From positions 1 through 40,295 of the forward strand of contig JAILFT010000064.1 of the NCBI GenBank assembly GCA_024697425.1: 40,295 bases of DNA. The letters run 5' to 3'. Below the pieces are notes generated by a model, which was given only the letters and a program-made list of their open reading frames with translations, was not told where the DNA came from and ran no database searches. This document shows positions 1,979 through 23,356 of this stretch, in pieces. Positions within the stretch are counted from its first letter, which is position 1; every line of letters begins with the position of its first letter. The position numbers and the translations under genes are program-made. Origin of the DNA: Butyrivibrio sp. (lineage in GTDB: Bacteria; Bacillota; Clostridia; Lachnospirales; Lachnospiraceae).

Positions 1979-3027
1979 CCAACCAAGACATGAAGAAGAT
2001 GGCTGTAAAAGCCTCTGTTTTTGCGGTGTTGGCCATAGGACTTATGGTGCACCGCTCAGCCACCAAGCACATCATGATCACAGATGCTGCAGGGGCGCAC
2101 GAGGACAGAGGAAGTGCCGATGACTCATATTCACTGCTGATAGATAAGAATGTTCCTGCGGGCAAAGAGAATACTCTGATAATCCCGCTGTCGAAAAGCG
2201 TAAGCTCCGATGATATCGTGCTGGAGGACCGCTACATTGACAATGAGCTCCTTATCTATATCGACAGCCGAGAGGAAGGGTTTTATCTGGATAATCCGGT
2301 GCGGACGGATCTTGATATCCTGAAGAAAGCCGTTTGCATCAAGGAAAACGACACCGGTAGCGTGTGCCTGGACTTTACTCTGGACGGGCTCTACGTCAAT
2401 GAGAGTTCTCTTACGGATGCCAGCACTATAGAGGTGCGCTTTAGCAGGCCCAAGGACAAGTATGATTATATAGCGGTTGTGGATCCTGCCTGCGGAGGAA
2501 GCGATACAGGCTATTTTACCGAAGAACTTTCGGAAAAGGATATAAACCTTGATGTGGCTATGGCCCTTCGGGAAGAGACTGCCAGGACGCCGGAATCGGG
2601 AATAAGGATTTATTATACAAGGCTCGGGGATATGGATGTTTCCCCGGAGCAGAGACAGAAGCTGATAAGAGACAGCGGCGCAGATCTTTATGTGGAACTT
2701 ACCTGCAATATGGCTCCGGACAGGACGGATGGAATAACTTCCTACTACAACGACAGATTTTTTATCCGGGGATTCAACAACGCGGATTTTGCCAATCTGG
2801 TGGAAAAGAGCTGTCTTTTGGCCTCAGGTGCCGATGCGGGCGGAGTTAAGGCTGCGGACCCGGAGGATGATATGATCATGTCCTGTACTATCCCGGCTGT
2901 TCGCCTGGATATGGGGAATCTTCAGGGCTCCGGAGATAAGAGGCGGCTAGCGGAAGACGACTATAAAAAGAAGATGGCTGAGGGCCTTTATCAGGCTCTT
3001 TTACAGGCCTTTGAGGAGATGGAATGA
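1975..3027 (+). CDS. Membrane-anchored amidase_3-like protein with degenerate catalytic site
   Basis: This 350-residue protein has one N-terminal membrane segment (about residues 8-25), a beta-rich region (50-160, possibly AMIN-like, uncertain) and a C-terminal N-acetylmuramoyl-L-alanine amidase type 3 fold (about 163-345). The family's zinc ligands are mostly lost. The usual DPGHGG is DPACGG with Cys at 173; the second His (SIHAN-type motif) is Thr243 in VELTCN; the catalytic Glu near the C terminus is Asp312 in RLDMGN. Only Glu187 of the EKDxNL motif remains. I infer a non-catalytic peptidoglycan-binding or regulatory amidase homologue outside the membrane; activity through a different metal site cannot be excluded. 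It overlaps its neighbours by ATGA on both sides, between rlmL and rdgB. Confidence 0.7.
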   Translation: MTNQDMKKMAVKASVFAVLAIGLMVHRSATKHIMITDAAGAHEDRGSADDSYSLLIDKNVPAGKENTLIIPLSKSVSSDDIVLEDRYIDNELLIYIDSREEGFYLDNPVRTDLDILKKAVCIKENDTGSVCLDFTLDGLYVNESSLTDASTIEVRFSRPKDKYDYIAVVDPACGGSDTGYFTEELSEKDINLDVAMALREETARTPESGIRIYYTRLGDMDVSPEQRQKLIRDSGADLYVELTCNMAPDRTDGITSYYNDRFFIRGFNNADFANLVEKSCLLASGADAGGVKAADPEDDMIMSCTIPAVRLDMGNLQGSGDKRRLAEDDYKKKMAEGLYQALLQAFEEME

Positions 3028-3647
3028 GAATAGTATTTGCTACCGGCAATAAGGACAAAATGAGGGAAATACGTGAGATTTTAGGTGGTCTTGATGCGCA
3101 GATCCTTTCCATGAAGGAAGCGGGAGTTTTTGAGGACGTGGTGGAAGACGGCAGCTCTTTTGCCGAGAATGCCAGGATCAAGGCTGACGCCATATATGAA
3201 CTTCTGAAAGAAAAGGACCCGGAGGCAGCAGACCACACAGTGGTTCTGGCGGACGATTCGGGACTTGAGATTGACTATCTGAACGGTGAGCCGGGAATCT
3301 ACTCTGCAAGGTACCTGGGAAAAGACACACCATATACCGAGAAGAACCGCATAATAATAGAGAGACTTGCAGGTGCCGTGGACGAGGAGCGAAGCGCCAG
3401 GTTCGTTTGCGCCATTGCGGCAACACTGCCAGGTGCCAAAAAGATCGATACAATAGGCAGGATGGAAGGCAGGATCGGATACGAGATTGCCGGAGAAAAC
3501 GGTTTTGGCTATGATCCCATTTTCTTTCTGCCGCAGTACGGCAAGACCAGCGCTGAGCTTTCTCCGGAGGAGAAGAATGCCATAAGCCACAGAGGGAAGG
3601 CTTTAAGGGCAATGGCGGAGCTTTTGAAAGAGGAGCTTTCCAAATGA
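3024..3647 (+). CDS. rdgB: Non-canonical purine NTP pyrophosphatase (XTP/dITP diphosphatase), RdgB/HAM1 family
   Basis: The protein has 207 residues, the normal family length. The N-terminal phosphate-binding motif is FATGNKDKMREI (residues 5-16). The metal and active-site region ADDSGLEIDYLNGEPGIYSAR (about 75-95) and the C-terminal ENGFGYDPIFF plus ISHRGKAL signatures are all intact. It hydrolyses ITP, dITP and XTP to monophosphates, cleaning the nucleotide pool in the cytoplasm. The start overlaps the previous stop (ATGA), so it is the third gene of the rlmL operon. Its stop codon TGA at 3645-3647 is embedded in an extended -10 element for the next gene. Confidence 0.95.
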   Translation: MRIVFATGNKDKMREIREILGGLDAQILSMKEAGVFEDVVEDGSSFAENARIKADAIYELLKEKDPEAADHTVVLADDSGLEIDYLNGEPGIYSARYLGKDTPYTEKNRIIIERLAGAVDEERSARFVCAIAATLPGAKKIDTIGRMEGRIGYEIAGENGFGYDPIFFLPQYGKTSAELSPEEKNAISHRGKALRAMAELLKEELSK

Positions 3648-3687
3648 TATAATCGGAGGAGTTCCCTGGAGGGAACCGTTCTCCTAT
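3645..3687 (+). promoter_or_regulatory. Extended -10 overlapping the rdgB stop, with a leader hairpin
   Basis: TGATATAAT (3645-3653) supplies an extended -10 whose TG is part of the rdgB stop codon. Immediately downstream, GTTCCC-TGGA-GGGAAC (3661-3676) is a perfect hairpin, flanked by AGGA/TCCT that can lengthen it. The predicted transcript of the phosphoesterase gene would begin at or next to this stem-loop. Confidence 0.55.
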
Positions 3688-3707
3688 GGATTTAATGGTG
3701 GTAATTG

Positions 3708-4190
3708 ATGCATAAGTACTTGGTTGTCAGTGATACGCACGGACATGACGACAATTTTTATACAGTTCTGGACCTTGTGGGGCCTCTGGATGGGGTGATC
3801 CACTGCGGGGACTTTGAAGGCTCCGAAGGGAGATTTGCCCTGGCAGCAGGTTGTCCCGTATATTTCGTTGCCGGTAACAACGACTTTTTCTCGGATCTTA
3901 AGAGAGAGATTGAATTTGAGCTGGATGGCCACAAGGTTATGGTGACTCACGGGCACCACTATATGGTCTCCATGGATCTGGAGAATTTAAGGGCTGAAGC
4001 GGCTTATCGCGGCGCTGATATCGCGTTTTTTGGCCATACCCACAAGCCGGTTGCGAAGTGTATTGACGGTATCTGGCTTTTTAATCCCGGAAGTCTTTCC
4101 TATCCCAGGCAGGAGGGGCGGCGTCCCAGCTACATGATCCTGGAAATCGGAGACGACGGAAAGATTGGTTATGAATTCAGATATTTGTAA
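3708..4190 (+). CDS. YfcE/MJ0936-type metallophosphoesterase
   Basis: A calcineurin-like phosphoesterase of 160 residues carrying the full motif set: SDTHGH near the N terminus, CGDFEG, GNNDFF, THGHHYMV and FGHTHKP. These residues bind two divalent metals. The family hydrolyses small phosphodiesters; the natural substrate is usually unknown. The protein is cytoplasmic, with no signal peptide or membrane helix. The ORF track starts at a TTG (3705), but the ATG at 3708 has better spacing from TGGTGG (3696-3701) and gives the normal MHKYLVVSDTHG start. It probably has its own promoter overlapping the rdgB stop, and could also be read through from the rlmL operon. Confidence 0.88.
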   Translation: MHKYLVVSDTHGHDDNFYTVLDLVGPLDGVIHCGDFEGSEGRFALAAGCPVYFVAGNNDFFSDLKREIEFELDGHKVMVTHGHHYMVSMDLENLRAEAAYRGADIAFFGHTHKPVAKCIDGIWLFNPGSLSYPRQEGRRPSYMILEIGDDGKIGYEFRYL

Positions 4191-4226
4191 ATTTGAGTAT
4201 TTATAAATGTTGGTATTTATGAAGCT

Positions 4227-4259
4227 CAAGCTGCGAAAACCCAGCATTGATGCGGCTTG
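4227..4259 (+). other. Hairpin downstream of the phosphoesterase gene
   Basis: CAAGCTGC (4227-4234) pairs with GCGGCTTG (4252-4259) around a 17-nt loop. No T-tract follows, so this is only a weak candidate for a terminator or RNA-stability element before the tRNA promoter. Confidence 0.35.
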
Positions 4260-4289
4260 CGGTTGGATATAAATAATTGATAAAATGTG

Positions 4290-4319
4290 TTGACAAGTAC
4301 GGCTCCATTATTATATAAT
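4290..4319 (+). promoter_or_regulatory. Strong sigma-A-type promoter of the tRNA operon
   Basis: TTGACA (4290-4295) and TATAAT (4314-4319) are perfect consensus hexamers with an 18-bp spacer. Transcription would start near 4326, about 36 nt before tRNA-Pro. The short leader can form TACGG-CTTTGA-CCGTA (4331-4346). Confidence 0.85.
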
Positions 4320-4361
4320 ACTTTTTGCGTTACGGCTTTGACCGTAGTGTGACTTGCGAAA

Positions 4362-4436
4362 CGGGGTGTGGCTCAGCTTGGCTAGAGCACCTGCTTTGGG
4401 AGCAGGGGGTCGCAGGTTCGAATCCTGTCACCCCGA
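4362..4436 (+). tRNA. tRNA-Pro (anticodon UGG)
   Basis: A cloverleaf of 75 nt. The acceptor CGGGGTG pairs with CACCCCG, the anticodon stem CCTGC/GCAGG holds the loop TTTGGGA, and the T-arm GCAGG-TTCGAAT-CCTGT is canonical. The discriminator is A and no 3' CCA is encoded. First gene of the seven-tRNA operon. Confidence 0.97.
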
Positions 4437-4455
4437 CGTTTAATTAAATACATCT

Positions 4456-4526
4456 GCGGGTGTAGTTCAATGGTAGAACACCAGCCTTCCAAGCTGGACA
4501 CGTGGGTTCGATTCCCATCACCCGCT
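4456..4526 (+). tRNA. tRNA-Gly (anticodon UCC)
   Basis: A cloverleaf of 71 nt. The acceptor GCGGGTG pairs with CACCCGC, and the anticodon stem CCAGC/GCTGG holds CTTCCAA. The T-loop TTCGATT is standard, the discriminator is T, and no CCA is encoded. Confidence 0.97.
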
Positions 4527-4531
4527 CTTTT

Positions 4532-4670
4532 GAGCAGAGCACTTGCTGAGGTTTTTTCGAAGCTAGTGCGAGCCATGGGTGGACACCTGACGAGGTACTT
4601 TCGAGTCTGGTGGAGCATCCCAGAGCAGAGCACTTGCTGAGGTCCTTCCGAAGCTGGTGCGAGCCATGGG
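4532..4670 (+). repeat. Three diverged copies of a hairpin-forming repeat between tRNA-Gly and tRNA-Arg
   Basis: Copies 1 (4532-4579) and 3 (4623-4670) are 48 bp long and differ at only 4 positions. A more diverged copy 2 lies between them (about 4581-4620). Each folds into a stem with a 13-nt loop of the form GAGGTnnTTnCGA: arms 4539-4547/4561-4569, 4584-4591/4605-4612 and 4630-4638/4652-4660. The stem bases of copy 2 differ from copies 1 and 3 but stay paired (GCT/AGC becomes GAC/GTC), and a T-T mismatch is kept at the same place. Function unknown. The minus-strand ORFs called here are artefacts. Confidence 0.75.
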
Positions 4671-4700
4671 GAACATTCCGAGGCATAGCTCAATTAAAAT

Positions 4701-4774
<74 letters not shown>

Positions 4775-4801
4775 TTCTTTTTTTCAGTTTTTTGTTATGA
4801 T

Positions 4802-4877
4802 GGTGGCTATAGCGTAGTTGGTTAACGCGCCAGATTGTGGTTCTGGAGACCGAGGGTTCGAGTCCCTCTAGCCACCC
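4802..4877 (+). tRNA. tRNA-His (anticodon GUG)
   Basis: A 76-nt gene including the extra 5' G (G-1) opposite discriminator C that identifies tRNA-His. The acceptor GTGGCTA-type stem pairs with TAGCCAC, and the anticodon stem CCAGA/TCTGG holds TTGTGGT. No CCA is encoded. Confidence 0.96.
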
Positions 4878-4903
4878 TACCGGCAGAATTGTTGCTGTAA
4901 CAA

Positions 4904-4975
4904 TGGGCCATCGCCAAGCGGTAAGGCACAGCACTTTGACTGCTGCATACGACGGTTCGAATCCGGCTGGCCCAG
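4904..4975 (+). tRNA. tRNA-Gln (anticodon UUG)
   Basis: A cloverleaf of 72 nt. The acceptor TGGGCCA pairs with TGGCCCA, the anticodon stem CAGCA/TGCTG holds CTTTGAC, and the T-loop is TTCGAAT with one weak pair in the T-stem. The discriminator is G and no CCA is encoded. The spacer before it can form ATTGTT-GCTGT-AACAAT, which touches the first base of the tRNA. Confidence 0.96.
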
Positions 4976-5017
4976 TTCGCGGGAGCACTATGAACCGCTC
5001 TAATGTATTACACATAT

Positions 5018-5090
5018 GGGATACTAGCTCAGGTGGTAGAGCACTTGACTTTTAATCAAGTTGTCGGGGGTTCGAATCCCCCGTGTCTCA
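5018..5090 (+). tRNA. tRNA-Lys (anticodon UUU)
   Basis: A cloverleaf of 73 nt. The acceptor GGGATAC pairs with GTGTCTC, the anticodon stem CTTGA/TCAAG holds CTTTTAA, and the T-arm is GGGGG-TTCGAAT-CCCCC. The discriminator is A and no CCA is encoded. Confidence 0.97.
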
Positions 5091-5096
5091 TTTTTC

Positions 5097-5124
5097 CCTA
5101 TTCATTATGAGTAGGGTTTTTTTA
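5097..5124 (+). terminator. Intrinsic-terminator-like hairpin between tRNA-Lys and tRNA-Leu
   Basis: CCCTATTCAT pairs with ATGAGTAGGG (one G-T wobble) and is followed by seven T residues. It ends only about four bases before tRNA-Leu, leaving no room for a separate promoter downstream. Confidence 0.75.
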
Positions 5125-5127
5125 TAG

Positions 5128-5207
<80 letters not shown>

Positions 5208-5217
5208 CTTTATTGGG

Positions 5218-5247
5218 GCCTGTCATAGAAGATGACAGGCTCTTTTC
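5218..5247 (+). terminator. Intrinsic terminator of the tRNA operon
   Basis: GCCTGTCAT (5218-5226) and ATGACAGGC (5232-5240) form a perfect 9-bp stem with a 5-nt loop, followed by TCTTTTC. Confidence 0.88.
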
Positions 5248-5250
5248 ATG

Positions 5251-5259
5251 TGCTAATAT
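5251..5259 (+). promoter_or_regulatory. Candidate extended -10 of the MATE gene
   Basis: TGCTAATAT resembles an extended -10 just downstream of the tRNA terminator and 27 nt before the ATG. No convincing -35 is seen, since that position falls in the terminator stem. Confidence 0.4.
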
Positions 5260-5286
5260 AGTAGTAGGAGAAAATCAGGTATAAAC

Positions 5287-6666
5287 ATGAATAAACAAAA
5301 GGCTACTAAAAAACAGATAAGTATAACCGAGGGCTCCATTTGGAAGAGCATGCTTTCTTACTTCTTTGCGCTTCTTCTGGGAGCTTTTTTCCAGCAGCTC
5401 TATAATACCGTGGATGCGGTGATTGTTGGCCGTGCTGTCAGCAGTGATGCTCTCGCGGCGGTTGGCGGGTCTTCAGCTACTGTGGTAAATCTTTTCGTGG
5501 GATTTTTCCTGGGGCTGTCATCAGGCGCAACCGTGGTGATCTCTCAGTTCTTTGGCGCAGGCCGCAAAGAAGAGGTTTCCAAGGCAGTGCATACGGCCAT
5601 TGCTGTGGCTCTTATCGGCGGCGCCATCATCACTGTAATCGGTTTTGGCTCCGCTTCCTGGATCATCAAAGCTATGAAAACACCACCCGAAACTATAGAG
5701 GCATCTACGCTTTATCTAAGAATCTTTTTCCTGGGGATGATACCGAACCTTGTCTACAACATGGGTGCAGGCATTTTGAGGGCCATAGGCGACTCCAGAA
5801 GGCCGCTGATAGTTCTGATCATCAGCTGCTTTGCGAATATCTTTCTTGATGTTTTTTTCGTTATTGCACTTAGAATGGGCAAAAGAGGAGACGTGGCAGG
5901 CGTTACGGGAGTGGCTGTGGCTACAATCCTGTGTCAGCTCCTTAGCGCGGTGATCGTATGCGGCATTCTGATCCGCAGCACGGACTCCTACAGGCTCGAT
6001 ATCAGGAAGATAAGGCTGGACAGAGGAATGCTCTCCAGGATCATCAGCATCGGCCTTCCTGCGGCTTTTCAGTCCACCATGTACACCTTCTCCAACATTC
6101 TGATCCAGTCCTCCATAAATGAGTTCGGAAAAGATACAGCGGCTGCCTGGGCAGCTTACGGCAAGATTGATGTGGTTTTCTGGATGACCATGAGCTCCCT
6201 TGGAACGTCGGCCATGACTTTCGTAGGGCAGAACTACGGCGCCGGCAAAATGGACAGAGTGCGCAGGTGTGTTCGGGAAGCTTTCGCCATTGCCCTTATC
6301 ATTACGATACCCATGTCAATCCTGATTGTGCTGGGAAGAAGCCTGCTCCTTGGCATATTCGTCAATGCACAGGCGGTTATCGAGATCGGCGATCAGATGA
6401 TACGTTTCCTGGCGCCTTTCTATGTGACCTATATCGGAATTGAGATATTCTCAAGCTCCCTTCGTGGAATGGGGGATGCGCTTATCCCCATGATCATCAC
6501 TCTGAGCGGTGTATGTATCCTTCGTGTGGGCTGGGTGCTGGTGGCTTTCCCCATTGTCCGCACGGTTCAGACTGTGGAGTGGAGCTATCCTATCACATGG
6601 ATCACGACTTCAGTGCTGTTTTCTATCTATTATCTGTATTACACAAAGAAAAAGAAAATACGATAA
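5287..6666 (+). CDS. MATE family multidrug/toxin efflux transporter
   Basis: The 459-residue membrane protein has about twelve hydrophobic segments and two MatE halves. The signature LGAFFQQLYNTVDAVIVGR is near the N terminus (about 32-50), and the second half begins with IISIGLPAAFQSTMYTFSN. MATE proteins export cationic drugs or metabolites in exchange for Na+ or H+; the substrate cannot be read from the sequence. The gene stands alone between the tRNA-operon terminator and its own terminator at 6688. The start codon follows a weak AGGT, with a stronger GGAG lying too far upstream (16 nt). There is no adjacent regulator. Confidence 0.93.
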   Translation: MNKQKATKKQISITEGSIWKSMLSYFFALLLGAFFQQLYNTVDAVIVGRAVSSDALAAVGGSSATVVNLFVGFFLGLSSGATVVISQFFGAGRKEEVSKAVHTAIAVALIGGAIITVIGFGSASWIIKAMKTPPETIEASTLYLRIFFLGMIPNLVYNMGAGILRAIGDSRRPLIVLIISCFANIFLDVFFVIALRMGKRGDVAGVTGVAVATILCQLLSAVIVCGILIRSTDSYRLDIRKIRLDRGMLSRIISIGLPAAFQSTMYTFSNILIQSSINEFGKDTAAAWAAYGKIDVVFWMTMSSLGTSAMTFVGQNYGAGKMDRVRRCVREAFAIALIITIPMSILIVLGRSLLLGIFVNAQAVIEIGDQMIRFLAPFYVTYIGIEIFSSSLRGMGDALIPMIITLSGVCILRVGWVLVAFPIVRTVQTVEWSYPITWITTSVLFSIYYLYYTKKKKIR

Positions 6667-6687
6667 ATAAGTATATCGGGAAATTTT

Positions 6688-6726
6688 GAGCCTCCGTGGC
6701 CGGATAGAGCCATGGCGGCTCTTTTG
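6688..6726 (+). terminator. Intrinsic terminator of the MATE gene
   Basis: GAGCCTCCGTGGC (6688-6700) pairs with GCCATGGCGGCTC (6709-6721) with one mismatch and one wobble, followed by TTTTG. Confidence 0.8.
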
Positions 6727-6742
6727 CGATATTTCTAAAGAG

Positions 6743-6885
6743 GGAATTTTTCCAAAAAGGGATGATTTTTGGAAAAAGGCAGCAGAAAAAATCAAATTAT
6801 TTTCAAAAACAAAAGGTTCACGTGGAGATTTGGGGTGTTTCGGGCTATATTGGAAAAAAACCATGTTAATGGAGGAAATATTTCC
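6743..6885. repeat. Cluster of GGAA/TTCC inverted repeats between two terminators
   Basis: TTTTTCCAAAAA (6747-6758) and TTTTTGGAAAAA (6766-6777) form a perfect 12-bp inverted repeat around GGGATGA. GGAAATATTTCC (6874-6885) is a perfect palindrome, and TTGGAAAAAAACC lies between. No supported gene lies in 6667-7081, a 415-bp stretch that otherwise holds two terminators and an 18-bp repeat pair. The palindromes could be regulator sites or a small inverted-repeat element remnant. Confidence 0.5.
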
Positions 6886-6950
6886 AAAATCGCTGAGCAC
6901 AGCCGCCGGTTCCGCTATCCAAATAAAATCGAATTTTTTTCTCAATCAAA

Positions 6951-6976
6951 ATAGGGCGGCCCTTAGGCCGCCCTAT
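6951..6976 (-). terminator. Intrinsic terminator of the PBP1A gene
   Basis: ATAGGGCGGCC (6951-6961) and GGCCGCCCTAT (6966-6976) form a perfect 11-bp stem with a CTTA loop. On the minus strand it is followed by TTTTG, so it serves the PBP1A transcript about 105 nt after its stop codon. Confidence 0.8.
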
Positions 6977-7008
6977 AAGCTTCACTGAATATTCAAATTT
7001 CATTCGAC

Positions 7009-7071
7009 CAATCTTTGAATCACCAATCTGCGAAGCGCTGATCTCTAATTCATCAATCTTTGAATCACCAA
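7009..7071. repeat. Exact 18-bp direct repeat in the PBP1A 3' untranslated region
   Basis: CAATCTTTGAATCACCAA occurs at 7009-7026 and again at 7054-7071, with a 45-bp period. Both lie between the PBP1A stop and its terminator, so they would be in the mRNA 3' end. Function unknown. Confidence 0.7.
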
Positions 7072-7081
7072 CCAATGAACT

Positions 7082-9838
7082 TTAGTTTCCTGCCGATACT
7101 TCGTCGGTGACTGCATCAATTATTGAATCCACGATCTCACCCGGGGTTGGAACTGCGGGCTGCTCAGGTGCAGGCGCGTTGGGATCGATTCCCGCAGCGG
7201 CGGCTGCAGCAGCTGCTGCGGCCTCTAAAGCTCCGCGCTCGCCGTTTATGATGCCCTCAATGCCTTCCTGAGCCATGAACTCGGGAGTGTGGTGACACTG
7301 GTTAAGCACCGTTACGGTGTTACCGTTCTCATCCGTGGTAGTGGTATAAGCTGAATTGGTCTGAACATAATTTACAAAGCCTGACTGCAGTGCCGGAGGA
7401 ACAGGCGGTGTAAGCTCAAATACTCCTGCTGTCTTGAAAGGACAGAACTCTGAAGCGGGAAGTCCATCCATTGCGCACATTGTGCCCTGATAGTGGACAT
7501 CACAGCTCTCTGTGGGAACCGTTCCTTCCTCGAAATACTCACTGATCAGCGTTCCGTCGCAAAGGCCTGCAATGGGCTGTTTGCCGGATCTTGCACAGAC
7601 TGTTGCGGAGGTGATACCGCTGGGTACTGTGAAGGAGGAGTAAGGAAGGTCTGCGTGAACCTGTTCCATTACCTTTCTCCACATGGTCTTTGCAAGGTTC
7701 TTCTCTGCTGAAACAGTCATCTTGGCGTTGTTGTCGTAGCCTGCCCAGGTGGTTGCTGTGTAGTAGTTGGTGTATCCTGCAAACCAGACGTCGTTGTAAT
7801 CTGAAGTTGTTCCTGTCTTACCTGCAATGGCTGTGGTTCCGAAGTTTACGGATCCGCCGGTACCGCTGGTTACAACGTCCTGCATTGCGCTGGTGAGAAG
7901 GAAAGCAGTGGTCTCTTTGATGATCCTCTTGGAGCTTACCTGTGTGTTGTCCAGTACAATGTTTCCGTCGTGGTCCACAACCTTGGTGTAGAGCTTGGGC
8001 TCTGCGTAAACGCCGCCGTTGCCGATTGCCGCATAGGCTGCGTTCAGCTCGATATTCTTAACGCCGTAGGTAAGTCCGCCAAGTGCGGTGGACTGCTGTA
8101 TGTCTGAGTAAACCTTGCCGTTTATGGTCACATTCTCGGCCAGGGTGGTAAAACCGAAGTTCTTAAGGTAATCAAATCCAAGCTGGGGTGTGATCAGTGT
8201 CAGAGCCTCGACTGCGATTACGTTCATGGAGTCTCTGATTGCGGATCTTACGGTGTTAAGTCCGCGGTACTGACTGCCCCACCAGTTTCTTACAAGGGTT
8301 CCGTCGTTGTAGGCAAAAGGCGCATCGTTAAACACGGTAGCCAGCGTAAGTCCTGCACTGTCAATGCCGGGAGCATAGGTGGAAAGCACCTTAAAGGTTG
8401 ATCCGGGCTGACGGTAGGAGTCTGTTGCTCTGTTAAGGGTCCTGCTGGCGGTCTTCTCGCCTCGTCCGCCCACCATGGCAACGATATAACCTGTGCTCTG
8501 TTCCTCGACAGTGATGGATACCTGAGGCTGAGGGATAAGGTTGATCTTCTCTGCCAGTACGGAATCGCCGTCCTTCATGACAACCGACTTATATTCCTCG
8601 ATGCCGGCCTCTGCGGATTCATGGGAATCGTAGAGCATGTTGAAGGAGCTCTTCTGTTCCTTGAAATAAGCCTGGTACATTTCACTGCTGTAGTTGCTTA
8701 CGTTTCCGTCAGCATCCTGAACAGACAGTTCATAGGTCAAAAGATATTTCGTCCCCTCCGGATAGTTGCTCTCATCCTGGAAAACGGAGTCGCAGATCTT
8801 CTGGATCTTGGGGTTCTGAGTGGAGTATATCTTAAGGCCGCCGCTGTAAAGCAGTGTGTAGGCCTGTGTCTCGTTGTAGCCTGCCTCAATAAGGTCATCC
8901 AGAACGTCATTGGTAAGGGCATCAACGAAATAGGAGTTGATGGTGGAATCGCCGCCGGATTCCTGGTTTACCGTCTGGATCCTTGAGTAAACATCATCAG
9001 CCATGGCTGTATCGTACTGGATCTGATTGATGTACTCGTGCTTGAGCATGTTTCCCAGAACTTTCTTGCGCCTCTCGGCATTGTCATCGGGATGGGAGAT
9101 GGGATTGAACTTACTGGGGTTCTGAGTGATGGCCGCTATGCATGCGCACTCGGAAAGGTTTAGCTCGCTGACGGACTTATTGAAGTAACGCAGGGATGCC
9201 GCCTGAACACCCAGTGTGTTCTGACCAAGGTTGATGGTGTTCATATAATTAAGAAGAATCTCATCCTTGGACATGGTCTTTTCAAGCTGAACAGCCAGGT
9301 ACTGTTCCTGGATCTTACGCTTTACAGACTCAATAAAGGTCTCGTTGGTCCATCCGGAAAAGACATTGTTCTTAAGAAGCTGCTGTGTAATTGTACTTGC
9401 ACCCTCGGAGAAATGTCCGGAAGTGACACCGACAAAGCCGGCACGGATGATACCCTGGATATCGATACCGTTGTGCTCATAGAATCGCTCATCCTCGATT
9501 GATACAAAGGCGTGAGCCAGATTCTCGGGGATCATATCCATTGTGACCGGGATTCTGTTGGAATCTGTTGATACCAGCTTGGCAATCTGATTGCCGTCTG
9601 TGTCATAAACAAAGGTTGAAAATCCTGTGGGGGTAACATCGATGTTGCCTATGTCGGGCGCATCATCCCTGATGCCGTTGAATACTCCGATTCCTGCGCT
9701 GGCACCGATTATCACCACAGCCAGGATCAGGGCCAGGACAATATAAAACCCGAAGAGGCTTATCTTTTTGCCCCATTTATTGGTACCGGAATTCAGCGCT
9801 CTTGCCTGCTGATTGATACCTCTTTTTCCGTAATTCAT
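7082..9838 (-). CDS. mrcA: Bifunctional penicillin-binding protein 1A (glycosyltransferase and transpeptidase)
   Basis: The 918-residue class A PBP has an N-terminal cytoplasmic basic tail and one membrane anchor (about 28-50). The GT51 domain carries the catalytic Glu115 in SIEDERFYEHNGID and the EGASTITQQLLKN motif (145-157). The transpeptidase domain carries S480-TFK, S537-MN and K674-TG. It polymerises lipid II and cross-links peptides outside the membrane. The tail beyond about 850 contains an alanine run of ten or more residues and a Pro-rich stretch, and ends in an acidic segment; such low-complexity tails are common in Firmicutes PBP1A. The gene is monocistronic, with SD GAGG seven bases before the ATG, its own extended -10 upstream and a strong terminator downstream. 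Confidence 0.96.
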   Translation of the reverse strand: MNYGKRGINQQARALNSGTNKWGKKISLFGFYIVLALILAVVIIGASAGIGVFNGIRDDAPDIGNIDVTPTGFSTFVYDTDGNQIAKLVSTDSNRIPVTMDMIPENLAHAFVSIEDERFYEHNGIDIQGIIRAGFVGVTSGHFSEGASTITQQLLKNNVFSGWTNETFIESVKRKIQEQYLAVQLEKTMSKDEILLNYMNTINLGQNTLGVQAASLRYFNKSVSELNLSECACIAAITQNPSKFNPISHPDDNAERRKKVLGNMLKHEYINQIQYDTAMADDVYSRIQTVNQESGGDSTINSYFVDALTNDVLDDLIEAGYNETQAYTLLYSGGLKIYSTQNPKIQKICDSVFQDESNYPEGTKYLLTYELSVQDADGNVSNYSSEMYQAYFKEQKSSFNMLYDSHESAEAGIEEYKSVVMKDGDSVLAEKINLIPQPQVSITVEEQSTGYIVAMVGGRGEKTASRTLNRATDSYRQPGSTFKVLSTYAPGIDSAGLTLATVFNDAPFAYNDGTLVRNWWGSQYRGLNTVRSAIRDSMNVIAVEALTLITPQLGFDYLKNFGFTTLAENVTINGKVYSDIQQSTALGGLTYGVKNIELNAAYAAIGNGGVYAEPKLYTKVVDHDGNIVLDNTQVSSKRIIKETTAFLLTSAMQDVVTSGTGGSVNFGTTAIAGKTGTTSDYNDVWFAGYTNYYTATTWAGYDNNAKMTVSAEKNLAKTMWRKVMEQVHADLPYSSFTVPSGITSATVCARSGKQPIAGLCDGTLISEYFEEGTVPTESCDVHYQGTMCAMDGLPASEFCPFKTAGVFELTPPVPPALQSGFVNYVQTNSAYTTTTDENGNTVTVLNQCHHTPEFMAQEGIEGIINGERGALEAAAAAAAAAAGIDPNAPAPEQPAVPTPGEIVDSIIDAVTDEVSAGN

Positions 9839-17269: not shown

Positions 17270-17300
17270 TCCTTTGGATTTATAAAAGGAAAGAGAATAG

Positions 17301-17352
17301 AGGGAGCGCTGTGTTTTCGGGGAAACACGGCGCTCTCTTTATTTTTATTTTA
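17301..17352 (+). terminator. Strong intrinsic terminator of the ABC transporter operon
   Basis: GAGCGCTGTGTTT (17304-17316) pairs with AAACACGGCGCTC (17323-17335) with one wobble. The stem extends outward by AGG/TCT, and a T-rich tract TTTATTTTTATTTT follows. Confidence 0.92.
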
Positions 17353-17380: not shown

Positions 17381-17480
17381 TTGACACGCTAACATGTACA
17401 ATATTAAACTTAAATTTACCACCCGCTTTAACGCTTAAAAGCGATAACGGTACAATGCGTTGAAAGTACAATGCGTTGAA
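17381..17480 (+). promoter_or_regulatory. Control region of the I9-like/subtilase/cohesin operon with tandem 16-bp repeats
   Basis: TTGACA (17381-17386) is a perfect -35; possible -10s are TATTAA (15-bp spacer) or TAAACT (18-bp spacer). Downstream, GTACAATGCGTTGAA is repeated exactly at 17450-17464 and 17466-17480 (16-bp period). A partial copy, TGTACAAT, lies at 17395-17402. The tandem units could be regulator sites in the leader or duplicated TACAAT -10 elements. Confidence 0.5.
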
Positions 17481-17512
17481 TGCACGACGTAAATAGAAAC
17501 CGGAGTGAGAAC

Positions 17513-17767
17513 ATGAGAAGAATCGATTATGGCAGCGCGCCGGTTCGGGCGTACATTGTATTTTCGGCAGATACGGCTATCGAGGACGGTGTTAAGGCAG
17601 TTGAGAGTGAGGTTCTTGGAGGGGGGAAGCTTGATGTCTCCAGAATCGACAACAGTGGGCATGCTGTTGTCGCAAGAATCAGCGGGGAGCTCGTTGAGGG
17701 GATACAACAGCTGCCGGTTGTGAGTCGCATCAAGATTGAGATGCCTGCAAGACCTACTAAAAACTAG
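17513..17767 (+). CDS. Free-standing I9-like (subtilisin propeptide-like) small protein
   Basis: An 84-residue protein starting at ATG 17513, which has GGAG 7 bases upstream; the ORF-track start at 17480 has none. Its order of elements matches subtilisin propeptides (inhibitor family I9). A first strand AYIVFS is followed by a helix, then a GGGKLDV strand as in the propeptide GGKV turn, then GHAVVARISGELVEGIQQLPVVSRIKIEM. That last stretch mirrors the usual strand, helix, P-x-V-x-x-I/V-E end. There is no signal peptide, so it should stay in the cytoplasm. It sits 17 bp upstream of a secreted subtilase that has its own propeptide. I infer an intracellular protease inhibitor or chaperone; the fold assignment is from pattern only. 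Confidence 0.72.
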   Translation: MRRIDYGSAPVRAYIVFSADTAIEDGVKAVESEVLGGGKLDVSRIDNSGHAVVARISGELVEGIQQLPVVSRIKIEMPARPTKN

Positions 17768-17784
17768 CTATTGGAGGAACGTGT

Positions 17785-20700
17785 ATGAAAAGAAGAGTGT
17801 GCCCTAAAAAGGCACTGGCTGTGATCCTGAGTGCGGCAATGGCTTTTTCACCCGCCATCACAGCTTCGGCAACGGCATCCGAGACTTTGACTGCGGAGAC
17901 AGCAGAAGTCAAAGAAGCTGAGGAAACTAAGGAAGCCGGCGAAGAGGCAGGCGAGGAAGTTACTTCCGAGGAAAAAGAGTCCGAGCAGGAAACTGCGGAA
18001 GAGACCAAGGGAGAATCAGAGGAGGCTGCAGGCTCAGAAGAGGCCAAGGAAGCGGCTGATGAAACCAAAGAGTCAGAGGACGAAGTCGACGAGGCTGCCA
18101 AAGAGGGAGAACTTGTTTTTGAGAAGGTTGACCCTGCTGAGGAAGAACTTGAGATTTCAGGTGCCAAGGATCTGGTTGAAGGAGAAGCAGCAGACTTCTC
18201 GGTCGCTACTCCCGATCCCGACGAGCAGACTCGTGTCATCATCGTAATGGAGGGTGACAGTGTACTTGATGCCGGTTTTGACACAGAGACACTTGCCGAG
18301 AATGATGCAGCTATGAATATGTCTGAGAACATCATTGCAGAGCAGGGGGTTCAGGTAGAAAAGATCGAAGCACAGGCTCTTGAAGGAGCTGAGCTCGATG
18401 TAAATTATAATCTCTCAATCCTTACAAATGCTGTATCAGCAGATGTTGCCTTTAAGGATATTGAGAGCATCGCAGATGTAGACGGAGTTGCAGCTGTATA
18501 TGTAGCTCAGAAGTATGAGCCTCAGGCTACAGATGCAGAGATCAACACCATTACAGCCGGCGATATGGTTGGAAGCTATGACACCTGGACAACAGGTTAC
18601 ACAGGTGCAGGCACAAGAATTGCAGTCATCGATACAGGTATCGATGCAGATCATCCTTCTTTTGACGGTGGAGCTTTTGATGCTCACCTTCAGGAGACAG
18701 CAGAAAAGGCAGGAAAGACAGTTGCTGATTACACCCTCCTTGATGAGAGCGAGATCGCAGCAGTTCTCCCCAACCTCAATGCAACCCAGAGAAACGGCGG
18801 CATTTCAGCTTCCGATCTGTATCTTAGTGAGAAGATCCCCTTCGCATTCAACTATGTAGACAAGGATCTTGATATAACTCATGCAAATGACAAGGAAGGC
18901 GACCACGGTACACACGTATCAGGTATCGCAACAGCCAACACTTATGTACCCAGTGCTGCATCCGAGACAGGATATGCAAGACAGGAACTTGGTGTTGTAG
19001 GTGTTGCTCCCGATGCACAGCTGATCACCATGAAGGTATTCGGAAAAGGCGGCGGAGCATATTCCGATGACTACATGGCAGCTATTGAGGATGCCCTTCT
19101 TCTTAAAGCTGACGTTGTAAACCTTTCTCTTGGTTCATCTGCAGCAGGATATTCCTCAGACGCAGAGGCTTACATCAATGATATTTTCAAGAAGCTTGAG
19201 GGAACAGGCACTGTTGTTTCTATTTCTGCAGGTAACTCAGGAAGATTCGGTGATGACACAGCTGTTGGTGCCAACCTCAGCTGGGATGTAAACATGGATA
19301 CCATCGGTTCTCCCGGATCCTACTACAATGCATTCACAGTTGCCAGCGCTGTTAACAGCGGTTTTACAGGAAACTACCTTGCTACAACAGACGGCAAGAA
19401 TATCTACTATACAGACGGTAATGATACACTGGCTCCTAAGTTCTATACTCTGGACGTATCTGCTGACGGTAAGGGAACAGAATATCCTTTCGTATTCATC
19501 AACGGTAAGGGCGCTGCTTCCGATTACGAAGCACTTGTTGATGAAAACGGAGAGAGCCTTGTAAAGGATAAGATCGTATTTGTACAGCGTGGTGAGCTGA
19601 CCTTCGGCGAGAAGCAGATGAACGCTGAGGCAGCAGGCGCTAAGGCTGTAGTTATTTACAACAATCAGCCCGGAACAATCTCCATGACTCTTCAGGGCAG
19701 CACAGCTGTTATCCCTGCTGTATCTGTAACTCTTGATGAGGGTCTTGGAGTAGCAGAGACTGCTACAGAGCAGATCAGTGAGAAGGCGTGCGCAGGTACT
19801 CTTACAGTTGTAGCAACACCTGCAACTAACTTTGAGGCAGCTGATGGTTACACCATGAGTGATTTCTCATCAGTCGGTGTTCCCGAAACTCTTGACCTTA
19901 AGCCTGAGATTACAGCTCCCGGCGGAAACATCTATTCCACAAGAGATGGCGGAACCTATGGAAACATGAGCGGAACTTCAATGGCTGCTCCTTCCATCGC
20001 AGGTCAGACAGCTCTTGTTGAGCAGTATATTAAGGAGAATGACCTTGCAGCAAAGACCGGACTTTCAGTTCGTAGCCTTGCTCAGGCACTTATCATGAGC
20101 ACAGCTGATCCTCTTACTACAGGCAATGATGCAAGTGCTCCCGAGTACTCACCCAGATCCCAGGGCGCAGGACTTGCAAACGTACATGATGCAGTAACAT
20201 CACCTTCATATGTTCTTGTTGGCGACAAGGCCGGCAACGATGGTAAGGTAAAGGTTGTTCTTGGAGACGATCCTTCAAGGAACGGCTCTTACAGCTTCTC
20301 ATTTGATGTATATAACCTTACAGATGAGCCTCAGTACTATGAGCTTGACTCAAGCGTCCTGACAGAGGAACTTATCCAGAACTATTTCATCATGTGTGAG
20401 TCCCACAAGCTCAGCCCTGAGGTTACTCTTACAGCAGATGACACAGCTCTTGTATATGACCTTAACTATGACGGAAGAGTAGACAAGAAAGACCGTAAGG
20501 TTCTTCTTCAGGTAGTAAACGGAAGCCTCGATCTCAACCTTGTATCCCAGAACGAGGACTATTTCGACTTCAATACAGACGGTATTGTAGATACTAAGGA
20601 CGTATATATCTTTGGTAAGCAGCTCAAGAAAAAAGATTCAGTGGTTGACCTTGGACGCAGAGTAATGCAGGTTAAGGATTCCACTAAGGTAAATGTTTCC

Positions 20701-21924
20701 ATCAACCTTTCAGCTGCAGACAGAGAGTATCTTGCACAGTTTGAGAACGGTATGTTTGTAGACGGTTTCGTATATGTTAACGGACCTGTGGATCTGTCAG
20801 TGCCTTTCCTTGCTTTCTACGGAAGCTGGATGGATTCTTCAATGTTTGAAGACTTCGACTTCATGGCATCAAGACATGATTCCAACTACGATGGATTCAC
20901 TTATTCAGGAGTTACAGCAACAAACTTCCTGACAATCTATCCCTTCGGTGATACATCTGAGGAAAATGAGCTGTTCTATGTTCCTAATCTTTTTGCAAAG
21001 GATGCTAAGTATATTGCCGACAGAAATGCCATAAGCTCAGATCCTAAGATGGGTACGGTTCTTGGCTCACTGTACTATTCACTTATCAGAAATGCCAGCA
21101 GATCCATCCTTACCATCACAGATAAGAATACCGGTGAGGAGTACTTCAAGAATGTGAACTATGAGAATTACGCAGAGTTCTCCTATGAGGGTCAGATCGT
21201 AAACTATTGGCAGACACAGGATCTTTTCTGGACAGGTACCGATGCTGAGGGCAATCCTCTTGAGGACGGCACAGAGGTTCTGGTTAACCTTCAGGCAGTT
21301 CCCAGCTACTATGATGATGTAGAGGATCCTTCAACTCTTGACGGAAAGGGACTTTACCTTCCTTCAACACCTATTGCTATCGATAACACAGCTCCTGAGA
21401 TTATGGGCTATGTACTCAATGAGGACGGAACACTTGGCGTTCAGGTACAGGATAACCGCTATACAGCAGCAGTCCTTATCCTCAATGAGGCAGGACAGAT
21501 TGTAGACAGATATGCTGTTGATCAGGAAACTAAGGGCGAAGAAGCAACTGTCAATATTAAGATGCCCGAAGGAACATTCTATGTTGATGTTGTTGACTAT
21601 GCATTAAATGAATCTGTATTCAGATTTACCAATAATACCAAGAAGAGCGAAGATGTAACCGAACCTACAGACAATGAGGAAAAAACCGGTGAGGATGCCG
21701 CTGAAGCTTCAGATGAAGAGGAGGTTTCCGAGGACGATTCCGACAAGACGGTTACAGACGAAGCTATTTCCAATGAGGATGCTTCAAGTGCTTCCTCCGA
21801 GACAGCAGATGTAGCTGATCTGACAGCAGAAGAGTCAGATCAGCAGGAAGAAGATGTGGAAGAGGTTCCCGCTGCTTCATCTGCTGATGAAGAAACATCT
21901 AAGGAGTTAGGAGGAAACGAATAA
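17785..21924 (+). CDS. Secreted lactocepin-like subtilase (S8) with internal dockerin-like module
   Basis: A 1379-residue secreted protease. In order: signal peptide (1 to about 30, ending ASATAS); Glu/Ala/Lys-rich acidic segment (about 33-135); I9-type propeptide (about 150-250); and an S8 domain with Asp283 (VIDTGID), His374 (DHGTHVSG), Asn484 (SAGNSG) and Ser732 (GTSMAAPS). A PA insert lies at about 590-650. A pair of 12-residue calcium loops, DLNYDGRVDKKD (892-903) and DFNTDGIVDTKD (928-939), forms a dockerin-like module. Fn3-like beta domains follow, then an acidic Ser/Glu/Asp-rich tail (about 1290-1379). No LPXTG or transmembrane anchor is present. SD GGAGG is 7 bases upstream of the ATG. 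It is co-transcribed with the I9-like gene before it and overlaps the cohesin-like gene after it by one base. Confidence 0.93.
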   Translation: MKRRVCPKKALAVILSAAMAFSPAITASATASETLTAETAEVKEAEETKEAGEEAGEEVTSEEKESEQETAEETKGESEEAAGSEEAKEAADETKESEDEVDEAAKEGELVFEKVDPAEEELEISGAKDLVEGEAADFSVATPDPDEQTRVIIVMEGDSVLDAGFDTETLAENDAAMNMSENIIAEQGVQVEKIEAQALEGAELDVNYNLSILTNAVSADVAFKDIESIADVDGVAAVYVAQKYEPQATDAEINTITAGDMVGSYDTWTTGYTGAGTRIAVIDTGIDADHPSFDGGAFDAHLQETAEKAGKTVADYTLLDESEIAAVLPNLNATQRNGGISASDLYLSEKIPFAFNYVDKDLDITHANDKEGDHGTHVSGIATANTYVPSAASETGYARQELGVVGVAPDAQLITMKVFGKGGGAYSDDYMAAIEDALLLKADVVNLSLGSSAAGYSSDAEAYINDIFKKLEGTGTVVSISAGNSGRFGDDTAVGANLSWDVNMDTIGSPGSYYNAFTVASAVNSGFTGNYLATTDGKNIYYTDGNDTLAPKFYTLDVSADGKGTEYPFVFINGKGAASDYEALVDENGESLVKDKIVFVQRGELTFGEKQMNAEAAGAKAVVIYNNQPGTISMTLQGSTAVIPAVSVTLDEGLGVAETATEQISEKACAGTLTVVATPATNFEAADGYTMSDFSSVGVPETLDLKPEITAPGGNIYSTRDGGTYGNMSGTSMAAPSIAGQTALVEQYIKENDLAAKTGLSVRSLAQALIMSTADPLTTGNDASAPEYSPRSQGAGLANVHDAVTSPSYVLVGDKAGNDGKVKVVLGDDPSRNGSYSFSFDVYNLTDEPQYYELDSSVLTEELIQNYFIMCESHKLSPEVTLTADDTALVYDLNYDGRVDKKDRKVLLQVVNGSLDLNLVSQNEDYFDFNTDGIVDTKDVYIFGKQLKKKDSVVDLGRRVMQVKDSTKVNVSINLSAADREYLAQFENGMFVDGFVYVNGPVDLSVPFLAFYGSWMDSSMFEDFDFMASRHDSNYDGFTYSGVTATNFLTIYPFGDTSEENELFYVPNLFAKDAKYIADRNAISSDPKMGTVLGSLYYSLIRNASRSILTITDKNTGEEYFKNVNYENYAEFSYEGQIVNYWQTQDLFWTGTDAEGNPLEDGTEVLVNLQAVPSYYDDVEDPSTLDGKGLYLPSTPIAIDNTAPEIMGYVLNEDGTLGVQVQDNRYTAAVLILNEAGQIVDRYAVDQETKGEEATVNIKMPEGTFYVDVVDYALNESVFRFTNNTKKSEDVTEPTDNEEKTGEDAAEASDEEEVSEDDSDKTVTDEAISNEDASSASSETADVADLTAEESDQQEEDVEEVPAASSADEETSKELGGNE

Positions 21925-22724
21925 TGAAGAATATTTTAAAGAGAACAGCGACTGCTTTTCTTGCTGCGCTGCTTCTTTTCACAGGTCTTCCTGCGCAGAA
22001 GGTAGAGGCAGCAAAGAGCGCACCGCTTAGCACAAGCGTTACCGTTACCGGTAAGAATGACAGCCAGAAGGTATTTTATACTCTGACTCTTAGCAAGACA
22101 AAAGTTACAGACGGACACATCGCAGTAGTATATGATCCCGAAGTTCTTGAAGTTGCAGCAGATATCGAGATTGACCGTTTTGACGATTACGATCTTAACA
22201 GCGATTATGAGGATGCCACAGGAAAGGGCATCGCCGTAGCATTTGTAAACGACGCTCCCAGAAACACAGCAGGTACTCTTGTTGCAATCAAGTTCAACGT
22301 TAAGAAGGGCGTTGCAGCTCAGGATACAGTTATCACCACAAGAGTATTCGACCTCAATAACGAGGAGAAAGAGCTCATCCCTGTTGAGACCGACCTTACA
22401 GACACTGTAAAGGTTGGCCGCGCAGAGCTTGCAAAGCCTAACCTTAAGTCTTTGAACCAGACTCTGCTTGGTGTTAATGTTACATGGAGCAAGGATAAGA
22501 ACGCTGACGGATATGTTCTGTATCGCAGCACATCCAAGGATGGCAAGTACACTGAGATCGCAACAACCACAGCCACAAGCTTCTGGGATGTTGTTCTTCA
22601 GAATAACAAGACATATTACTACAAAGTAAAGGCCTTCCAGGGCAAAGGTTCTGACAGAGTCTTCTCTGAGGAATCTAACGTTCTTTCCATAAAGGTTAAG
22701 AAGTTCCTCGGAATCTTCGGCTGA
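21924..22724 (+). CDS. Secreted cohesin-like plus fibronectin type III protein
   Basis: This 266-residue protein has a signal peptide (1 to about 29, AALLLFTGLPAQKVEA). A cohesin-type domain (about 36-165) follows with the hallmarks IAVVYDPEVLEV, GKGIAVAFVND and GTLVAIKFNVKKG. A fibronectin III domain (about 172-258) contains VNVTWSKDKNADGYVLYRS and YYYKVKAF. No sortase motif, SLH domain or membrane anchor is seen, and it ends LGIFG. The start codon overlaps the subtilase stop (TAATG), with a strong AGGAGG inside the upstream coding region, implying translational coupling. I infer that it binds the dockerin-like module of the co-encoded protease on the cell surface. The cohesin call rests on motif order alone. 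Confidence 0.8.
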   Translation: MKNILKRTATAFLAALLLFTGLPAQKVEAAKSAPLSTSVTVTGKNDSQKVFYTLTLSKTKVTDGHIAVVYDPEVLEVAADIEIDRFDDYDLNSDYEDATGKGIAVAFVNDAPRNTAGTLVAIKFNVKKGVAAQDTVITTRVFDLNNEEKELIPVETDLTDTVKVGRAELAKPNLKSLNQTLLGVNVTWSKDKNADGYVLYRSTSKDGKYTEIATTTATSFWDVVLQNNKTYYYKVKAFQGKGSDRVFSEESNVLSIKVKKFLGIFG

Positions 22725-22748
22725 TCTTTATGGCCCCTAAATTTGGAG

Positions 22749-22784
22749 CTGCAGGGAAATTCGTTTCCCTGCAGTTCTTTTTTC
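22749..22784 (+). terminator. Intrinsic terminator with UUCG tetraloop
   Basis: CTGCAGGGAAA (22749-22759) and TTTCCCTGCAG (22764-22774) form a perfect 11-bp stem capped by TTCG, followed by TTCTTTTTT. It closes the protease-cohesin operon. Confidence 0.95.
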
Positions 22785-22804
22785 TTCTGAAACGATTAAG
22801 TTTT

Positions 22805-22813
22805 TGCTATAAT
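22805..22813 (+). promoter_or_regulatory. Extended -10 of the XRE-type gene
   Basis: TGCTATAAT is a perfect extended -10, 30 nt before the ATG at 22844. The -35 region overlaps the preceding terminator's T-tract. Confidence 0.65.
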
Positions 22814-22843
22814 GGTGGAAAGTATAGCTATGGAGGTGCAAAA

Positions 22844-23356
22844 ATGGGGAAAAAGTCGATCAAAGAAAATAAGAATATATATTTCGAGAGCCGCGAGGAA
22901 GCCGGACTTACCAGGGCCCAGGCCAGTGAACTTATAGGAACCATAAGTGAGAGCAGGCTTGAAAAGCTTGAGACAGGCAAGACAGCTCTTTATCCAGAGG
23001 ATGTGGTGGATATGGCCGCTGCCTACAAGAAGCCTGAGCTTTGTAACTATTATTGCACTCACGAGTGCCGTATCGGCAAGGATACCGATGTGCCGGAGGT
23101 CAAGGTCTCAAGCCTTTCGGAGATTGTCCTTAGCATGCTTTCGGCCCTCAACAATCTGAATGCACAACAGGTAAGGCTGATTGATATCACCGCTGATGGC
23201 GTTATTTCTGATGACGAACTTCCTGATTTTGTTCAGATACAGCATCAGCTTGATCAGATAGACACTACGGTGGAATCTCTTAAGCTCTGGATCGCCAGCA
23301 CCATTGCTGACGGCAAGCTTAACAAGGACAGACTCAAGGAGCTTCAGTCAAAATAA
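22844..23356 (+). CDS. XRE-family helix-turn-helix regulator with Cys-rich motif
   Basis: A 170-residue protein starting at ATG 22844, supported by GGAGG 7 bases upstream and an extended -10; the longer ORF from 22730 would include the upstream terminator and is rejected. Residues about 10-60 resemble an XRE helix-turn-helix (EEAGLTRAQASELIGTISESRLEKLETGK). A short cysteine and histidine segment, LCNYYCTHECRIGKD, follows and may bind metal. The C-terminal half is mainly helical (LDQIDTTVESLKLWIAS), suited to dimerisation. It is probably a cytoplasmic regulator; its targets are not evident. Confidence 0.75.
   Translation: MGKKSIKENKNIYFESREEAGLTRAQASELIGTISESRLEKLETGKTALYPEDVVDMAAAYKKPELCNYYCTHECRIGKDTDVPEVKVSSLSEIVLSMLSALNNLNAQQVRLIDITADGVISDDELPDFVQIQHQLDQIDTTVESLKLWIASTIADGKLNKDRLKELQSK

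Follow-up and report, generated by a model that had tools for sequence, protein, structure and literature searches.

The window analysed here—a stretch of 40,295 nucleotides from Butyrivibrio sp. (contig JAILFT010000064.1)—encodes a secreted subtilisin-like S8 protease that carries a dockerin-like module and, in a gene overlapping its end, a small secreted partner protein with a single cohesin. From the comparison of sequences, this cohesin–dockerin pairing is real, conserved, and specific. In the assembly of the genome (3.03 Mb, 84.5% complete), a Pfam genome search finds a single cohesin and a single dockerin over the cut-off, and both are encoded in adjoining genes, which bears out the proposal of a preliminary description that a self-contained cohesin–dockerin pair exists here outside a cellulosome. 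A multi-cohesin scaffoldin and a set of many dockerin enzymes, by which a cellulosome is recognised, were not found in this assembly. We consider it fairly probable that the protease of this rumen bacterium is anchored or organised at the cell surface by the cohesin, which would be dedicated to it and hold it non-covalently.

For ten genomes of the same genus, each dockerin is found in the protease and essentially nowhere else, in eight of them over the Pfam cut-off; the second dockerin match of genome G022 is the remaining piece of its protease, which is divided over two contigs. The Pfam cohesin model finds the partner, beside the dockerin protease, in 8 of these 10 genomes, and a similarity search with the window protein recovered the partners of G013 and G060, which Pfam misses. 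When the genome collection was scanned for the protease, 44 loci came up, to which the window adds a further one. Both sites could be read in 40 loci (window included); in the remaining five, the contig breaks off within the protease. Family profiles detect a single dockerin and a single cohesin, side by side, in 40 of 40 readable loci—an arrangement that is more than chance. An orthologous protease that lacks the module but keeps the partner gene was encountered in 0 of the 40 complete loci. The distant homolog L094 (open reading frame 1370–7903, + strand) has lost the insert at this site and kept the cohesin neighbour, but bears a pair of F-hand loops elsewhere in the protein, namely at aa 386–480, inserted into the S8 catalytic domain behind the catalytic His motif.

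Of 99 related genomes, 15 have the protease, and these same 15 have the full-length partner; the chance of this would be about 1 in 2e17 if the two were independent and unrelated by descent, which they are not. Genome G008, which has no protease, still holds a partner fragment (L020, contig C69, 1495–1770, − strand; Fn3 and tail, 64% identical), which fits a joint loss of the pair. A mirror-tree comparison was discarded as proof of specificity: the partner correlates with the dockerin (0.85), the catalytic domain (0.86), and the Fn region (0.94) alike, and there is therefore no sign of specific coevolution.

The three genes of the locus (I9-like, protease, and partner) lie on the + strand in 17480–22724 and are bracketed by two terminator-like hairpins. 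The features are as follows:

17296–17343, + strand: strong intrinsic-terminator-like hairpin with a 20-bp stem, 5′ of the unit
17480–17767, + strand: I9-like open reading frame, 95 aa, without signal peptide
17785–21924, + strand: S8 subtilisin-like secreted protease of the C5a-peptidase/cell-envelope-proteinase type, 1379 aa
18604–20172, + strand: S8 catalytic domain (aa 274–796) with PA insert (aa 580–653); D283, H374, N484, S732
20227–20840, + strand: first Fn3-like (fn3_5-type) domain after the catalytic domain, split by the dockerin module
20446–20640, + strand: dockerin-like module (aa 888–952) with the two F-hand repeats DLNYDGRVDKKD and DFNTDGIVDTKD
21637–21921, + strand: acidic C-terminal tail of the protease, 39% Asp+Glu, without LPXTG or transmembrane segment
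21910–21914, + strand: GGAGG ribosome-binding site of the partner gene, within the last protease codons
21924–22724, + strand: secreted partner, 266 aa, with signal peptide, cohesin, Fn3, and short tail
22011–22418, + strand: cohesin module of the partner (aa ~30–165)
22437–22697, + strand: Fn3 module of the partner (aa ~172–258)
22689–22721, + strand: short basic-aromatic C-terminal tail of the partner, ending KVKKFLGIFG and recurrent in Butyrivibrio partners
22745–22778, + strand: intrinsic-terminator-like hairpin with a 15-bp stem, closing the unit

The protease stop and the partner start share one nucleotide (TAATG), and the ribosome site of the second gene sits inside the first. Both open reading frames are real, and the locus is thus as it had been described initially: a protease with a dockerin-like module whose gene overlaps that of a secreted cohesin–Fn3 protein. 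The GGAGG site and the gene overlap recur in most Butyrivibrio and Pseudobutyrivibrio orthologs, with the overlap ranging from 1 base to a few dozen according to which start codon is chosen, whereas more distant genera show a gap of ~14–18 bases between protease and partner instead. A conserved GG at the protease C terminus was considered as a protein motif and rejected, as it stems from the ribosome site (GGAGG) of the gene that follows. An Rfam search of the region found no element. Downstream, an open reading frame for a helix-turn-helix protein (XRE-type) is listed at 22730–23356 of the window on the + strand and is a neighbour of the pair in no relatives but the closest (L035, L053); its true start probably lies further in (MGKKSIKEN...), because the listed ATG just precedes the terminator hairpin.

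In the AlphaFold (AF2) model of the protease region aa 815–1290, which has a predicted local distance difference test score (pLDDT) of 89.2, helices appear at aa ~901–911, 918–927, and 937–947, flanked by two strands of the first Fn3-like domain. The insert between these strands is the dockerin-like module. Both F-hand repeats bear the DxNxDGxxxxxD calcium loops of a type I dockerin, whose Asp/Asn residues are invariant or nearly so in 36 sequences, and the insertion point is identical throughout the ortholog loci. The Dockerin_1 score amounts to 18.8 bits in a scan of the single protein and to 23.8 bits in the genome search, the Pfam cut-off being 22.9. With a profile built from the orthologous modules, the nine top PDB matches are all cellulosomal dockerins (best E-value 4e-8); other EF-hand proteins match this profile too, weakly. 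That the module is a chance EF-hand is rejected by these dockerin-specific profile matches and by the conservation. Within repeat 2, the Thr at loop position 10 is invariant and the equivalent site of repeat 1 is variable, which suggests a single binding mode for the dockerin.

For the partner, the structural model (AF2, pLDDT 87.7) indicates a cohesin fold. Its best Foldseek match in the PDB is the cohesin–Fn3 tandem of Clostridium perfringens (2w1n, E-value 1.7e-7), and the lower matches comprise cohesins of Clostridium thermocellum and others (4fl4, 6kge_A, 3ul4_A). The cohesin reaches 25.2 bits in the genome search, with a cut-off of 24.1; orthologs score up to 40.1 bits, several of them below the cut-off, and hmmscan of the partner alone lists only a sub-threshold Fn3.

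The protease itself has the architecture of an S8 cell-envelope proteinase: an S8 catalytic domain with PA insert (Pfam, 158 and 56 bits, respectively), followed by Fn3-like domains. The catalytic motifs are intact (DTGID 283, HGTHV 374, AGNSG 482, GTSMA 730). By sequence, it comes closest to the solved structures of C5a peptidase, SpyCEP, and related cell-envelope proteinases, and the modelled Fn region matches ScpA, ScpB, and SpyCEP in Foldseek (best E-value 5e-15). A C-terminal sorting signal of its own was not found on the window protease, whose acidic tail ends in ...KELGGNE. These acidic tails had been thought to span the cell wall, an idea we reject: within Butyrivibrio and Pseudobutyrivibrio, their length varies from 21 to ~236 residues, and they bear no recognised anchor.

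Likewise, no recognised sorting signal was found on the other proteases with a separate cohesin partner, whose tails are acidic or neutral. The anchors are found on the partners, and their forms vary. The C terminus of the L038 partner consists of cell-wall/choline-binding repeats (Pfam, 84 bits); the partners of L062, L070, L071, L077, and L083 end in KTGD-like (sortase-like) motifs with transmembrane tails, and those of L082, L090, and L094 in FIVAR modules with transmembrane tails. Butyrivibrio partners bear the short basic-aromatic tails—KKFLGIFG in the window—and those of L066–L068 and L074 bear such basic-aromatic tails in another form. Among the dockerin-less proteases, some have anchor-like ends of their own (PPTGD with transmembrane segment in L095, SLH-like in L098), and other dockerin-less relatives have no evident anchor. 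The dockerin-less protease L097 (genome G139, open reading frame 5913–9578, − strand) ends in VKKVFKKIFGWIRH, and its tail VFKKIFGWIRH resembles the tails of the Butyrivibrio partners. By analogy, the L097-type tail is a possible unrecognised short surface-retention tail. Among 298 signal-bearing open reading frames, the short tail occurs in 16 partners and L097, and the other matches listed look like wrong-strand or chance hits; this comparison was made after L097 had been noticed.

In a set of 250 Lachnospiraceae genomes, almost every one of them from a different genus, 17 contain proteases of this class. Within the group that has the dockerin in the first Fn3-like domain, the cohesin lies downstream of the protease in L082, L083, and L084, and upstream in L089 and L090. 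It is part of the same chain as the dockerin in L081 and in L085b continuing into L086, with weaker matches in L085a and L092. L081 (genome G155, open reading frame 1501–7455, − strand) is a chain of 1985 aa with the S8 protease, the dockerin in the first Fn3-like domain, a cohesin near the C terminus, and a surface-anchor-like tail. No cohesin was found beside L087; in its genome, two cohesin genes lie at other places, and several dockerins are C-terminal. None was found for L091 and only a marginal one for L086b, and L088 stops at the contig edge. For the eight dockerin-less homologs, the stretches read contain no cohesin. L101 (G227, contig C13) and L102 (G120, contig C39) comprise two tandem single-cohesin genes beside large proteins with C-terminal dockerins, the downstream cohesin protein bearing a KTGD and transmembrane tail; these are other small non-cellulosomal systems in Lachnospiraceae.

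The I9-like protein upstream has no Pfam match, Inhibitor_I9 included. The profile of its family matches about a dozen homologous proteases at the place of their propeptide (E-values of ~0.03 to 0.005; best 1.9e-4, for L090), and the gene is therefore probably a free-standing relative of the protease propeptide. It lies directly 5′ of the protease in 19 of ~39 loci with room for it, including the distant L065, L071, L074, and L077 (weak for L071 and L077). In L036, L038, L049, L051, L052, L054, L061, L064, L065, and L074, the protein ends in a transmembrane segment, which the window copy does not have; these propeptide-like upstream proteins have no signal peptide, and a linker that is either acidic or rich in Ser/Thr leads to their C-terminal transmembrane helix. 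The initial idea of a three-part unit is supported in part, by the probable propeptide relation and the shared terminator-bounded unit, but only in about half of the loci is the gene directly upstream. With this patchy presence and the transmembrane segment in many relatives, the label "cytoplasmic guard" that had been given to this protein is no more than a possible one.

We propose that protease and partner form a dedicated non-covalent complex. The secreted C5a-peptidase-like protease would present the dockerin as an outward loop of its first Fn3 domain, and the single cohesin of the small secreted protein from the overlapping gene would grip it. The cohesin protein would thereby act as an adaptor of the protease to the cell surface, its C-terminal half being a recognisable anchor in related bacteria and, in Butyrivibrio, an Fn3 with the short basic-aromatic tail. 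The anchor would be supplied in trans, where related Gram-positive proteases carry their own C-terminal anchor. In species that have one, the free I9-type propeptide relative probably assists folding or restrains the enzyme. More generally, we see an even chance that such a system is widespread in Lachnospiraceae: a C5a-peptidase-like protease would have handed over its surface anchor to a dedicated cohesin protein via the Fn3-looped dockerin, with the anchor end being freely exchanged from lineage to lineage and, in Butyrivibrio, reduced to a new short basic-aromatic tail.

Several points weigh against the proposed complex and its surface adaptor. On a tree of 46 proteases, built without the columns of the module, all proteases with the dockerin in the first Fn3-like domain form one group; the module was therefore gained once here and co-inherited, so that its co-occurrence with the cohesin reflects linked genes that have long been inherited together, and not a correlated gain that recurred. 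With this single origin, correlated gain and loss offers no statistical proof. The dockerin stays below the Pfam cut-off in the single-protein scan. Furthermore, where cohesin and dockerin share one chain (L081, L085/L086, and marginally L092), docking is unneeded for anchoring in trans. The window partner has no recognised anchor, and the tail argument is one by analogy and after the fact. The last two points can be read in favour of a different role: the partner might bind the dockerin but serve as a structural or substrate-positioning subunit, which braces the Fn stalk or adds an Fn3, in a complex that may be released. The one-chain homologs would then suggest an intramolecular clasp, the Butyrivibrio partners in general show no recognised anchor, and Fn3-type domains are indeed found on both proteins. 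We nevertheless regard such a subunit as rather unlikely, since the C-terminal half of the partner is swapped for surface anchors in several lineages and the activity attributed to the ortholog of Butyrivibrio proteoclasticus B316 is cell-bound (PMC2914790).

The dockerin-like loop could also be a mere calcium-stabilised insert, with the cohesin-like protein having another ligand and the genes lying together for regulation. EF-hand-like modules can be purely structural, and the weak profile matches to other EF-hand proteins fit this idea, but the best matches are specifically dockerins, exactly one cohesin always adjoins the module, and L094—without the insert at the usual site but with the cohesin neighbour—has its two F-hands elsewhere in the protease. 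All this makes the calcium insert improbable. Still less credit goes to the partner as an inhibitor or as a helper of secretion or folding, which would dock for a short time during maturation and be released afterwards: the gene overlap and the propeptide-like protein in the same unit would agree with it, but partners of other genera bear anchors, and known cohesin–dockerin contacts are very tight and long-lived.

A dedicated surface pair would bear on earlier work on B. proteoclasticus B316 (G060). Its ortholog of the window protease is Bpr_I2629, with a computed mass of 153.3 kDa. Bpr_I2629 has been listed at this mass and as 5.8-fold up in xylan-grown cells (PMC5217386), and the cell-bound serine protease activity of B316 has been attributed to it (PMC2914790). 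The same genome study stated that secreted polysaccharide enzymes carry no dockerin and that cohesin components are lacking (PMC2914790), but the B316 protease bears the dockerin-like module, and a cohesin is encoded by the gene that follows. The Pfam cohesin model gives no match in B316 at E-values up to 0.1, though the partner is present, which may be why the published genome was described as being without cohesins. We found no description of this pair in the literature searched, subscription papers being largely outside its scope. Cohesin–dockerin pairs have been studied almost wholly as cellulosome parts. If the proposal is true, a one-to-one protease pair conserved across rumen Butyrivibrio and other gut Lachnospiraceae would explain the cell-bound protease activity reported for a proteolytic rumen bacterium. 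It would also provide a small surface-display pair of natural origin and a clear way to test what role a lone cohesin plays.

Among known systems, the streptococcal C5a peptidases, SpyCEP, and the lactocepins share the S8–PA–Fn architecture of the window protease. They end in their own sorting signal and have no dockerin; the window protease, on the contrary, has a dockerin and no sorting signal. In Ruminococcus albus, dockerin-bearing enzymes are believed to be kept at the cell surface by one cohesin (PMC6118326)—one cohesin for many enzymes, whereas here one cohesin meets one enzyme in one operon. The mucinolysome of Limousia likewise includes dockerin-bearing secreted peptidases together with a cell-wall-anchored scaffoldin (PMC12997984), but differs by its multi-cohesin scaffoldins and dozens of dockerins. 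Closer are the non-cellulosomal complexes of C. perfringens, which are also built pairwise from single cohesins: the cohesin–Fn3 tandem of GH84C (2w1n) is the best structural match, and FIVAR modules occur on partners here as well. The cohesin proteins of C. perfringens also bear glycoside hydrolase domains (PMC12997984), while here the enzyme is a protease and the partner is non-enzymatic, encoded beside it, and part of the only pair of the genome. For the C. thermocellum S8 protease with a double dockerin (dDoc_0689), a similar surface docking has been proposed (PMC12484212, PMC12997984); the PDB chains 8x39/8x3a, named "Serine protease" and among the matches of the dockerin profile search, are probably this module. 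That host is a cellulosome producer with many cohesins, whereas here a single dedicated cohesin is encoded in the adjoining gene and the dockerin loops from an Fn3 domain. By analogy, the Butyrivibrio pair might work like the C. perfringens and C. thermocellum dockings, but as an isolated operon of one enzyme and one cohesin.
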